A stretch of DNA of 64,000 bases from NCBI RefSeq assembly GCF_001306135.1, contig NZ_LGKP01000021.1, positions 186,001 to 250,000 of the forward strand, in the 5' to 3' direction. Positions 3,571 to 61,716 of this stretch are shown here, in pieces. The notes under the pieces were generated by a model. That model was not told the DNA's origin. It ran no database searches and was given only the letters and a program-made list of their open reading frames with translations. Origin of the DNA: Herpetosiphon geysericola (lineage in GTDB: Bacteria > Chloroflexota > Chloroflexia > Chloroflexales > Herpetosiphonaceae). A program made the position numbers and the translations under genes. Every line of letters starts with the position of its first letter. The first letter of the stretch is position 1.

Positions 3571-3841
3571 CCACTAAGAAAAGAGTGTGTGCTTCGATAA
3601 CTACACTTCTCGTCTGCATAGCAACAGAGCTAGACAGCGAACCAAGGAACAACTGATTCATCGCTCAATCAATGCCATTCCATTCAATGCCCTTTAGGGG
3701 GTGCAGGGGGATGAAAACCCCCTGCGTTTCCCGCCTTGAGGCGGGACGGAAGGGTGGTGATCACCAAGTAATTCACTCCAAGCAAGCACAATCTGGATTT
3801 AGTCTATTAAATCTTACCACCACTCAAAAAGAGAGAGTTTT
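3571..3841. other. Spacer containing a double-hairpin repeat
   Basis: This spacer between the glycosyltransferase and the next GNAT gene has no coding potential that I accept. Its central part is a reversed copy of the double-hairpin repeat (3697-3759). The bases just before 3842 hold AAAGAGAGAG, the likely ribosome binding site of the next gene. Confidence 0.6.
3697..3759 (-). repeat. Double-hairpin dispersed repeat, copy 1
   Basis: Read on the minus strand it contains two adjacent hairpins: CCCGCC-TCAA-GGCGGG, then GCAGGGGG-TTTTCAT-CCCCCTGC. The other copies start near 26813, 36451, 36631, 36813 and 61541. The first stem is CCCGCC/GGCGGG here and near 61.6 kb but CCCTCC/GGAGGG in the other four copies, so both strands of the stem changed together. 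Confidence 0.85.
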
Positions 3842-15477: not shown

Positions 15478-15765
15478 ATATCTTCCTCATTGATTAATTC
15501 AGTCTATCAATCAGTAATTATACCCATGATAGGCCGAGTGGCTAGTTATCGAATTATGAATTATGAAGGATGAGGGATGAAGTAAAAGTTAAAAGGCAGA
15601 AGACACAAATCGATAGCCAAAAGCCAATAGCCATTCGTGGAATTCGTGCAACTCGGGGCAAAAAAACAATTCTTCGTGTCCTTCGTGTCCTTCGCGGTTT
15701 CTATAGCCAATAGCCATTCGTGGAATTCGTGGCAAAAAATGTTCAGTGGCTTTGGCTAATTAAAA
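15478..15765. other. Spacer built of repeat phrases
   Basis: No gene is seen. The spacer holds TTATGAATTATGAAGGATGA, AAAAGTTAAAAGGCAGAAG, AGCCAAAAGCCAATAGCC (twice), ATTCGTGGAATTCGTG (twice) and CTTCGTGTCCTTCGTGTCC followed by TTCGCGGTTTC. Each phrase recurs in other spacers of this window. Confidence 0.6.
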
Positions 15766-26812: not shown

Positions 26813-26900
26813 TTCGCCACCCTTCCGTCCCTCCGCCGGAGGGAAACGCAGGGGGTTTTCATCCCCCTGCACCCCCAAATATTTGTCTGCTGGATTGTTG
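26813..26900 (+). repeat. Double-hairpin dispersed repeat, copy 2
   Basis: CCCTCC-GCC-GGAGGG, then GCAGGGGG-TTTTCAT-CCCCCTGC, then a conserved tail ending CTGGATTGTTG. It lies in the spacer between spoVR and a convergent GNAT gene, 30 bases past the spoVR stop. Confidence 0.85.
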
Positions 26901-36259: not shown

Positions 36260-36955
36260 TGATTGGTTACTCCCAAAACGGCTTGCGCCGGATAATGTTA
36301 AATGTCGTTATCTATGTTTAGGCCCAGTTTTGGGCTTGATTTCGTTGATCATTGCTTAGCATTTCGCCAGCCTTCGCGTGCTTCGTGGCCTTCGCGGTTC
36401 CAGTTGCTGACATCCAGACCCTGACCTCTAGCACCTGATCCCTGAACCCTCGTTCGCCACCCTTCCGTCCCTCCGCCGGAGGGAGACGCAGGGGGTTTTC
36501 ATCCCCCTGCACCCCCTCATATTCACGTGCTGGATTGTTAGTGTGTTTCTGTTACTCCCGCCTTCGCGTGCTTTGCGCTCTTCGCGGTTTCAACCGTTCC
36601 CCAATCCCCAGCAATCTATCCCTGAACCCTCGTTTCGCCACACTTCCGTCCCTCCGCCGGAGGGAGATGCAGGGGGTTTTCATCCCCCTGCACCCCCTCA
36701 TATTCACGTGCTGGATTGTTGCTGTGTTTCTACAACTCCCGCCTTCGCGTTCTTTGCGGTTCCAGTTGCTAACATCCAGACCCTGACCTCTAGCACCTGA
36801 TCCCTGAACCCTCGTTCGCCACCCTTCCGTCCCTCCGCCGGAGGGAGACGCAGGGGGTTTTCATCCCCCTGCACCCCCTCATATTTGCGTGCTGGATTGT
36901 TGCTGTGTTTCTACAACTCCCGCCTTCGCGTTCTTTGTGGCCTTCGCGGTTCCAC
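36260..36955. repeat. Tandem array of three ~180-bp repeat units inside the arg cluster
   Basis: Three copies of the double-hairpin element, starting near 36451, 36631 and 36813, sit in units about 180 bases long. Each unit has CCTGAACCCTCG before it, CTGGATTGTT after it, and then CCCGCCTTCGCG with variable CTTTG/TTCGCGGTT text. The flanking stretch from GCGGTTCCAGTTGCT to CCCCTCATATT is nearly identical over some 130 bases in the first and third units. No gene is seen in this 696-base spacer; it separates the Nudix gene from argA on the minus strand. Confidence 0.85.
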
Positions 36956-37477
36956 TTAGGCCCAATCAATTGCTGGCGGTACAGCCCACCCAGATTCAAA
37001 GCTGCTCACAAATGAATGAATTGCGCTTGGACGTTGGCCTTGCGCCAAGAATGTTGCCAACGATTTCAGCTCTTTAGGCCAAAATGGCATGCTGGCAATT
37101 TCAGCCAAACTGCGCCATTCGGGCATTGGTTTATCGGCGGCCTCGGCATGCAGTGTAGCCTGCGGATCTAACGGCGTAGCATACAGAAACACCTCTAACC
37201 CATAGTTTGGCTCGCGATCCTCAGGGTCGATGATGGCATAGGTTGGAATAACCCACTCGCGCAGAAAGGCAATTTTGCCAACTTGCACGCGAATGCCGCA
37301 TTCTTCCCAAACTTCGCGGGCAGCACACTCTGCCAACGATTCGCCGCGTTCTATGCCACCACCTGGCAAGCGCCAAACCAATTCTGGCTGATCTTCAGTC
37401 GCCAGAATTAAAATTTCCTGCTCACACAGCACAATCACTCGCGTCCGAATATTGTCGTAAACCGAATGACTGGGCAT
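36956..37477 (-). CDS. Nudix hydrolase
   Basis: 173 residues. The Nudix box runs from G40 to I62, with E46, R54, E55, E58, E59 and G61 in the expected places (GIERGES...REVWEECGI). It hydrolyses a nucleoside diphosphate linked to another group; the substrate is unknown. The start ATG overlaps the argB stop as TAATG, so it is co-translated with argB, although no arginine-pathway step needs a Nudix enzyme. Confidence 0.9.
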   Translation of the reverse strand: MPSHSVYDNIRTRVIVLCEQEILILATEDQPELVWRLPGGGIERGESLAECAAREVWEECGIRVQVGKIAFLREWVIPTYAIIDPEDREPNYGLEVFLYATPLDPQATLHAEAADKPMPEWRSLAEIASMPFWPKELKSLATFLAQGQRPSAIHSFVSSFESGWAVPPAIDWA

Positions 37478-44280: not shown

Positions 44281-44642
44281 TTCACCTCCGCAGTGATCAA
44301 AAAAACATTAAAATTATTATGCTGATCCTAGCCATAATTAACCATAGTGCCTTACTCCTAATCAGACCCCATGACATTCGTCGGTACTAAAGTGTGAGTA
44401 TTGGGGCAAAGGATGAATTATGAATTATGAGGGATGAAGGCAAAAGTCAGAAATCAAAAATCAGAAATCAAAAATCAATCCCAACAATCTGTGGGAATCT
44501 GTGGCTAAAAATAATCATTCGTGCAATTCGGGCAATTCGTGGCTAAATCTTCGCGGTTTCCGTCCTTCGTGCGCTTCGTGTTCTTCGTGGATCAAATGGT
44601 ACAATCGCCAGCAGCCGATAGCCTTATTTTCTGGAGGATTGC
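44281..44642. other. Spacer with repeat phrases
   Basis: The first 110 bases carry the terpene cyclase ribosome site and upstream region. From about 44405 the spacer is GAATTATGAATTATGAGGG, AAAAGTCAGAAATCAAAAATC, TCTGTGGGAATCTGTGGC, TCGTGCAATTCGGGCAATTC and CTTCGCGGTTTCCGTCCTTC phrases. GGAGGATTGC at the end serves the lipoprotein gene. Confidence 0.55.
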
Positions 44643-48247: not shown

Positions 48248-48702
48248 GATGAAATTATGAAGGATGAAGGATGAGGGATGAGACGAAAGTATGAAGGATG
48301 AAGGATGAAGTTAAGAACATAGAGCATAGAACATAATCCTAAAAATCTGTGGCTAAAAACTTAACCTTCGCGCTTTTCGCGTCCTTCGCGGTTTCCAACC
48401 TTCGTGCTCTTCGTGTGCTTCGTAGATAAGCTTTAACGCAGAGGCGAAGAGGAAGTATGGCTCTTGGCTGATGGCAAGGGGCTAGTGGAACAAGAATCAA
48501 ATAAATCTGTGCCAATCTGTGGCGAAAAAAAATTAACTTTCGCGCTTTTCGCGTCCTTCGCGGTTCCGTGATCTTCGTGCTCTTCATGGATCAAGCGATT
48601 AACGCTGTACAAGCATTAATCGCTTTTGATCTATTTAACAGAACAGGCCAACATGCGATATGCTACAATGCCTAAGCTAGTTTTGGCGAGAAATAGGGCT
48701 GT
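48248..48702. other. Long spacer of repeat phrases
   Basis: No gene is seen. It has tandem GGATGAAGGATGAGGGATGA phrases, GAACATAGAGCATAGAACAT, AATCTGTGGC (twice), two CTTCGCGCTTTTCGCGTCC copies with CTTCGCGGTT after each, and AACGCAGAGGCGAAGAGG. The last 60 bases, with TACAAT near 48664-48669, are the likely promoter region of the glycosyltransferase gene. Confidence 0.6.
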
Positions 48703-61371: not shown

Positions 61372-61716
61372 AAGGATGAAGGGCTAGGGTTCAGAGATCA
61401 GGCTGTAGATTTGGGGCTAGCACGAGGCGGTTGGCATAGACAAGCCACCCTGACAAACGACCCCTCGCATCGCAACCACGAAGAACGCGAAGAGCGCGAA
61501 GATTGCAAAACGCAACAAGTTTGGGGTTACTGAATCAACCATAACAATCCAAAACACAAATATGAGGGGTGCAGGGGATGAAAACCCCTGCGTCTCCCGC
61601 CTTGAGGCGGGACGGAAGGGTGGTGAAACGAGGGATAAGGCATAAGGCATGAGGCCTGCTGCTGGCCAATGATTGGTTTAAACCTACCCAAGCACCAAGC
61701 GATGCTTGATTAACAT
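61372..61716. other. Repeat-phrase spacer between GT39 and ndk genes
   Basis: The spacer separates convergent genes. It contains GGGATGAAGGGCTAGGGTTC-like text, CACGAAGAACGCGAAGAGCG and a reversed double-hairpin repeat (61541-61634), then GGGATAAGGCATAAGGCATG. No gene is seen. Confidence 0.6.
61541..61634 (-). repeat. Double-hairpin dispersed repeat, copy 6
   Basis: On the minus strand CCCGCC-TCAA-GGCGGG, then GCAGGGG-TTTTCAT-CCCCTGC. The second stem is one pair shorter than in the other copies on both sides, again a matched change. The tail reads TTTTGGATTGTTATGG. Confidence 0.85.

Follow-up and report, generated by a model that had tools for sequence, protein, structure and literature searches.

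A short sequence that can fold into two adjacent hairpins recurs six times in the stretch of Herpetosiphon DNA analysed here (64 kb, hereafter the window). Is it the remnant of a mobile element, or a structure kept for what it does in RNA or DNA? An earlier note on this DNA had described six such copies, the composition of their stems and a shortened second stem near 61.6 kb, and all of these are present in the following features.

36381..36954, plus strand: tandem array of three 181-bp units, which also contain word repeats of the CTTCGCG type and a stretch resembling CCTGATCCCTGAACCCT
36459..36538, plus strand: array copy 1, with unpaired CCACCCTTCCG, hairpin 1 (36469-36483), hairpin 2 (36488-36510), a third C run and a TCATATTCACGTGCTGGATTGTT tail
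36640..36719, plus strand: array copy 2, with hairpin 1 (36650-36664) and hairpin 2 (36669-36691)
36821..36900, plus strand: array copy 3, with hairpin 1 (36831-36845) and hairpin 2 (36850-36872)
26813..26898, plus strand: single copy, with hairpin 1 (26829-26843), between convergent genes for a SpoVR-like protein and a GNAT acetyltransferase
3676..3760, minus strand: single copy of the CCCGCC-TCAA subtype, with hairpin 1 (3730-3745), antisense to both neighbours (glycosyltransferase and GNAT acetyltransferase genes, which run in the same direction)
61544..61627, minus strand: single copy of the CCCGCC-TCAA subtype, with hairpin 1 (61596-61611), hairpin 2 (61571-61591) and each of the three G/C runs shortened by one base, lying between convergent genes for a PMT_2-domain protein and a nucleoside diphosphate kinase

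Hairpin 1 reads CCCTCC-GCC-GGAGGG in the four plus-strand copies (26829-26843 and the three array copies) and CCCGCC-TCAA-GGCGGG in the two on the minus strand (3730-3745 and 61596-61611). As the loop changes along with the stem—GCC with CCCTCC, TCAA with CCCGCC—the two stem types represent two subfamilies. Hairpin 2 is GCAGGGGG-TTTTCAT-CCCCCTGC in five of the six copies and GCAGGGG-TTTTCAT-CCCCTGC at 61571-61591, where the third run (ACCCCC) is shortened as well: the same loss occurs in GGGG, in CCCC and in the next CCCC. Since three of the copies form one array with a 181-bp period, the window holds about four independent copies.

The common core of 60-90 bp, which is without coding capacity, consists of three mutually complementary segments, L-M-R. 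M (GGGARACGCAGGGGG) can pair either with part of L (CTTCCGTCCC...), giving hairpin 1, or with R (CCCCCTGCACCCCC), giving hairpin 2. Allowing one mismatch, the 15-mer GGGGTTTTCATCCCC has 123 matches in the window's genome (G000; 6.14 Mb) versus none when read backwards, so the repeat is not a product of chance. As single-stranded DNA, four window copies (six folds) reached z-scores of -2.3 to -4.1 relative to dinucleotide shuffles. No Rfam family matched the element at gathering score, a tRNA being the only match within the 64-kb window.

Within the window's genome, all 150 scored candidates, drawn from 1,561, matched the repeat, giving at least 150 copies; in H. aurantiacus DSM 785 (G036), 140 of 150 scored candidates did. 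Densities of 45 copies in 1.2 Mb and 29 copies in 0.8 Mb, respectively, extrapolate to ~230 copies per genome for both alike. A class-wide search of 150 genomes returned matches in 12: strong ones in six Herpetosiphon genomes and another member of the family (with 28-29 of the 29 scored candidates matching in each), and 1-16 weaker matches each in five genomes of other families, with Ca. Viridilinea the best of these. A pattern scan of GTDB hit at least 93 stretches, and the 80 matches listed comprise Herpetosiphonaceae, Viridilinea and five others (two Novosphingobium, one Brevibacillus, one Alicyclobacillus and one Gemmatimonadetes). A window copy found no match in phage and plasmid collections. 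Literature searches on Herpetosiphon intergenic or palindromic repeats and MITEs, Chloroflexi miniature inverted-repeat elements, Viridilinea repeats and Clostridiales-2 did not turn up the double-hairpin family.

The repeats are a real family and a mobile-element remnant, and they probably represent the conserved core of a non-autonomous, MITE-like family of Herpetosiphonaceae. The suggestion in the earlier note of a dispersed REP/MITE-like element is supported by copy number, intergenic placement, sites where one species has a copy and another has none, and a version with terminal inverted repeats. Site occupancy was surveyed at 26 loci picked for the presence of a copy in the window's genome. 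H. giganteus DSM 589 (G014) has a copy at 21 of 25 orthologous loci and none at four; a second relative (G018) has a copy at six of 25, none at 18 and a 17-bit fragment at one, some loci possibly being cut by contig ends. At clean empty sites the inserted stretch measures ~170-210 bp, exceeding the length of the core, and at several sites the insert carries unique flanks besides it. Direct repeats at Herpetosiphon insertion sites vary, from 17 bp (L049) to ~7 bp and 5-6 bp in two H. aurantiacus cases.

A longer form came to light when H. aurantiacus copies were set against sites that are empty in the window's genome. In this form, the core sits centrally between inverted ends CCTTWCAAGGGTAGGTTTT / AAAACCTACCCTTGWAAGG, often with CCCTCACCC / GGGTGAGGG outermost (the Herpetosiphon ends are also given as CCCTCACCC..CAAGGGTAGGTTTT). 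Among 92 copies of the TCAA subtype, 17 keep both inner inverted ends, 25 the left alone, six the right alone and 44 neither; 16 of those 17 are among the 44 TCAA-subtype copies from H. aurantiacus. End to end, 13 of the 17 span 165-177 bp, two 181-182 bp, and the remaining two 255 and 339 bp. The end motif has 169 matches in H. aurantiacus versus one for a backwards control, and it also flanks H. aurantiacus elements in which another repeat replaces the core. It does not occur in the window's 64 kb at up to three mismatches: all six window copies lack ends, and most copies in the window's genome have kept the core and lost, or never had, the ends. Because the GCC-loop subtype, the main one in the window, is devoid of inverted ends, its mode of spread is something we only infer. 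One 2.7-kb interval read between H. aurantiacus end motifs held ordinary genes only, and no parent transposase gene sharing these ends was found in the stretches examined.

The relative in Ca. Viridilinea is a sharply bounded 110-bp MITE that holds the same core between the ends GGGTGTGAC/GTCACACCC, in the order extra hairpin, hairpin, GGGGGAAAYGC, G-rich stem, C-rich stem and GCACCCCCTA. Scanning 36 loci yielded 16 elements whose two ends lie no more than 140 bp apart; 9-bp direct repeats are exact in five of the 16 and present with at most one mismatch in nine, versus 0.4% of mispaired flanks. The Herpetosiphon family shares with MITEs its hundreds of short, non-coding, intergenic copies, the inverted ends that flank the core in full-length H. 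aurantiacus elements and, in the Viridilinea relative, 9-bp target duplications. It is unlike them in that most copies, all six in the window included, are without ends, and in that the parent transposase was not found.

Several other repeats were also observed. At the array site (36307-36958), the orthologous stretches in H. aurantiacus and G030 (L142, L145) hold a different hairpin repeat (CCCTCACCCCCAACCCCTCTCCC...), half-copies of which number 52 in 400 kb of H. aurantiacus versus five in 800 kb of the window's genome. We considered that two distinct families might swap at fixed positions, as suggested by 8 of the 15 loci displayed and by the site in the window itself, an idea now weakened because the longer H. 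aurantiacus elements have similar outer ends. A nested case at L377:4545-4730 (H. aurantiacus ~4104545) has a CAAGGGTAGG-ended repeat that holds a CCCTCACCCC repeat and not the double-hairpin core. Window spacers at 48365-48567, 44548-44593, 15672-15700 and around the array (36367-36957) are made of many short word repeats (CTTCGCG/CTTCGTG, CCCCTGATCCCTGA, AATAGCCAATAGCC, GATGAAGGATGAGGGATGA) that form a composite intergenic filler.

Two other routes to a dispersed family were weighed against transposition of a MITE-like element. Segmental duplication or array expansion could in principle account for every copy, and the 181-bp period of the window array, like the many other loci with two or three copies spaced 157-266 bp apart, speaks for local duplication. 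We nevertheless judge it improbable as the sole origin: conservation across 61 deduplicated single copies is at background level beyond the core and a short tail, and relatives harbour elements that have inverted ends and 9-bp target duplications. Mobilisation as REP elements by a REP-associated tyrosine transposase (RAYT), one example of a parent that the earlier note had proposed looking for, fared worse and is largely refuted; we give it very little credence. The genome contains a single Y1_Tnp match (L113:1501-1866, G000 C44), with an internal stop, and the 3.4-kb locus around it, where the two best profile matches score 2.9 and 1.3 bits, has neither core nor end motif nor any of the repeats nearby. 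The reading frame that follows this match is, we presume, TnpB-like. What the family has in common with the GTAG and CGTC super-families of REPs and BIMEs, as described in PMC3733652, is that short, clustered intergenic hairpins are enriched at gene ends, in same-direction and convergent spacers. Unlike those, the Herpetosiphon units comprise two unequal hairpins, carry neither terminal tag and are not associated with a RAYT. GTAG is absent from the hairpin foot. According to that source, a CGTC REP has an unpaired CGTC, an 8-9 bp stem opening with AT pairs and a CCA tail; here, the T and C of the CGTC preceding hairpin 1 lie within the stem, which does not start with AT, and the CCA tail is missing.

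The earlier note had taken the matched stem changes to show selection for base pairing. In a set of 52 repeats from the window's genome, 95.2% of stem cells are paired versus 92.2 ± 0.4% after shuffling, pairing drops to 48-66% when the arms are slid against each other, and double changes occur in four of 15 stem pairs (11 cells). These double changes track the subfamilies. Orthologs offer a closer view: from 21 pairs, ten were dropped for rearranged flanks and one for a long indel, leaving ten clean pairs with 150 base pairs. These contain six one-sided changes that keep a pair and seven that break one—six of the seven tracing to two register-shifting indels—as well as one non-pairing double change and no pair-keeping one. 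Core and flanks diverge alike in the clean pairs, with flank identities averaging ~94-96%; over all 21 pairs the core differs by 5.0% and the near flanks by 10.3% and 16.2%, many of these flanks being rearranged.

Arm-to-arm copying is directly visible at some loci. Stems in 237 distinct copies normally reach up to 7 and 10 bp, with 15-17 bp in three outliers. At a locus shared by two species, the left arm in one (L050) and the right arm in the other (L152) is the exact complement of the middle arm, and the middle and right arms of L296 match across 15 bp. Such template switching has been proposed as a source of compensatory changes (PMC8794818). With double changes following subfamilies, none that keeps a pair in the ten ortholog pairs, and three cases of arm copying, the selection argument of the earlier note is not supported. 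Matched stem changes can arise by copying from arm to arm and are thus, taken alone, no proof of a working RNA, while weak selection on pairing is compatible with so small an ortholog sample. Compensatory changes are usually read as proof of a selected structure, and this dispersed hairpin, in which they are matched by visible arm copying at one locus in two species, offers a warning example.

The placement of the copies is uneven. Over 2.34 Mb, syntenic windows included, only two of 96 copies fall inside called genes and three are unplaceable, in regions with a gene coverage of 83-90% as determined by a purpose-built codon-usage caller. Counting one copy per spacer and orientation, convergent, divergent and same-direction spacers hold 19, 10 and 51 copies versus length-based expectations of 11.7, 18.4 and 49.9 (p 0.015). 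Of the 51 copies in same-direction spacers, 40 are antisense and 11 sense (p 6e-5), and without the four syntenic windows of relatives the split is 33 to 11 (p 0.0013). By genome, antisense to sense ratios are 19:9 in the window's genome and 14:2 in H. aurantiacus, with the opposite tendency in one region of the former (C1; 4:6). The 140 H. aurantiacus matches split 70:70 between replication arms, with the origin placed close to position 1 on the assumption that the sign of the GC skew marks it, which rules out the replication strand as the cause; for repeat family B, the gene strands are used evenly (20:20). Simple neutral insertion does not predict the antisense bias.

These placements speak for a rival reading, in which selection has retained the core after insertion as an RNA (or DNA) structure that acts at the 3' ends of genes, such as an mRNA stabiliser or terminator. 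Antisense placement puts the G-rich strand in sense, and does so in 40 of 51 cases or, leaving out the syntenic windows, in 33 of 44; convergent spacers are over-used and divergent ones under-used; replication strand has no part in it; the core is common to Bacilli (see below); and RNA folding is slightly better on the G-rich strand (mean -30.0 versus -27.6 kcal/mol over 193 distinct cores). Against this stand the similar divergence of core and flanks in the clean ortholog pairs and their lack of pair-keeping double changes, the gain or loss of copies between close species, and the missing Rfam family. Moreover, the window sequence, read by eye, has no T run after hairpin 1 or 2 on either strand, as would follow the G+C-rich hairpin of an intrinsic terminator. 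Taken together, we consider selection at gene ends an unlikely main explanation. An RNA-coding role of the double-hairpin repeats is no more than conceivable, given their antisense bias in same-direction spacers and their relatives in Bacilli.

As to these relatives, CTTCCGTCCCC, a sequence that the search pattern does not contain, is common to its matches in Brevibacillus gelatini and Alicyclobacillus acidiphilus, and a model built from Herpetosiphon copies found one match in each of these two genomes (E 1.6e-7 and 2.5e-7), compared with hundreds of copies in Herpetosiphon. The B. gelatini block is bordered on one side by an IS256-family transposase gene and on the other by one member of a 16-nt inverted repeat, the second member being located upstream of the gene. 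The same arrangement recurs in Geobacillus pBt40 (87% transposase protein identity) and a Brevibacillus marinus plasmid (95%), identities so high that the three transposase-linked cases do not count as independent. A search for the inverted pair succeeded in pBt40 but not in B. marinus, whose transposase gene is incomplete there. In two Paenibacillus plasmids and in Alicyclobacillus, the block occurs with no IS256-family transposase nearby.

Next to its IS256-family (Mutator, PF00872) transposase, the Brevibacillus/Geobacillus block has parts in a common order with the Herpetosiphon core: unpaired CTTCCGTCCCC, hairpin 1, GGGGARACGCAGGG, hairpin 2 and GCACCCC. Unlike the core, it extends over ~165 nt and contains further hairpins; all six Bacilli blocks align over about this length. 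A conserved, well-folding, non-coding block of this size is seen at L228:3401-3600, L397:2460-2660, L398:2410-2600 and L271:775-975. The R1 model scored the Bacilli loci given to it at 38.1, 37.8, 37.2, 28.5, 21.0 and 15.2 bits, four Viridilinea loci at 26.4-32.9 bits (plus a second match at 17.8), and the Novosphingobium and Gemmatimonadetes loci at 13.6-17.2 bits. Rfam gave no convincing match for the two Bacilli blocks scanned, the block was not found in phages, and a narrow pattern had no match in viral contigs. The Herpetosiphon stretches examined contained no IS256-family transposase, and tblastn with one Brevibacillus transposase against all stretches examined matched Brevibacillus loci only. 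Clostridiales-2 RNA (RF02937) matches all three array copies weakly, at full length and on the minus (sense) strand (AGGGGGUGCAGGGGG...CCCCCUGC...AGGGA), with 22.3-24.6 bits versus a gathering score of 58.6; a genome search returned two matches at E ≤ 0.001 and none above the gathering cut-off.

For the MITE-like family that we favour, we envisage the following history. A transposase acting in trans would have spread the elements, an IS256-family enzyme being a lead only; their ends would then have decayed, and local duplication would have built the arrays. Template switching during replication may occasionally have rewritten one arm from another, which could account for matched changes as in the three cases above. 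Copies would persist mainly in spacers with the G-rich strand in sense, presumably because the hairpin of that strand is tolerated or useful in the 3' region of a transcript.

The antisense placement and the Bacilli relatives are the interesting parts of the finding. More speculatively, the L-M-R double hairpin with its unpaired CTTCCG might be an undescribed structured module of mobile DNA in Chloroflexota and Bacillota, perhaps including Clostridiales-2 RNA, that acts as RNA; such activity would explain its antisense position beside genes, and the RNA may limit read-through into the element or serve as a guide-like RNA. We regard this as doubtful, yet if the module is one functional unit, it would be a structured component of mobile elements that has no name so far. 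Owing to the antisense bias, a function at gene ends lends itself to direct testing, and Herpetosiphon provides hundreds of natural copies.
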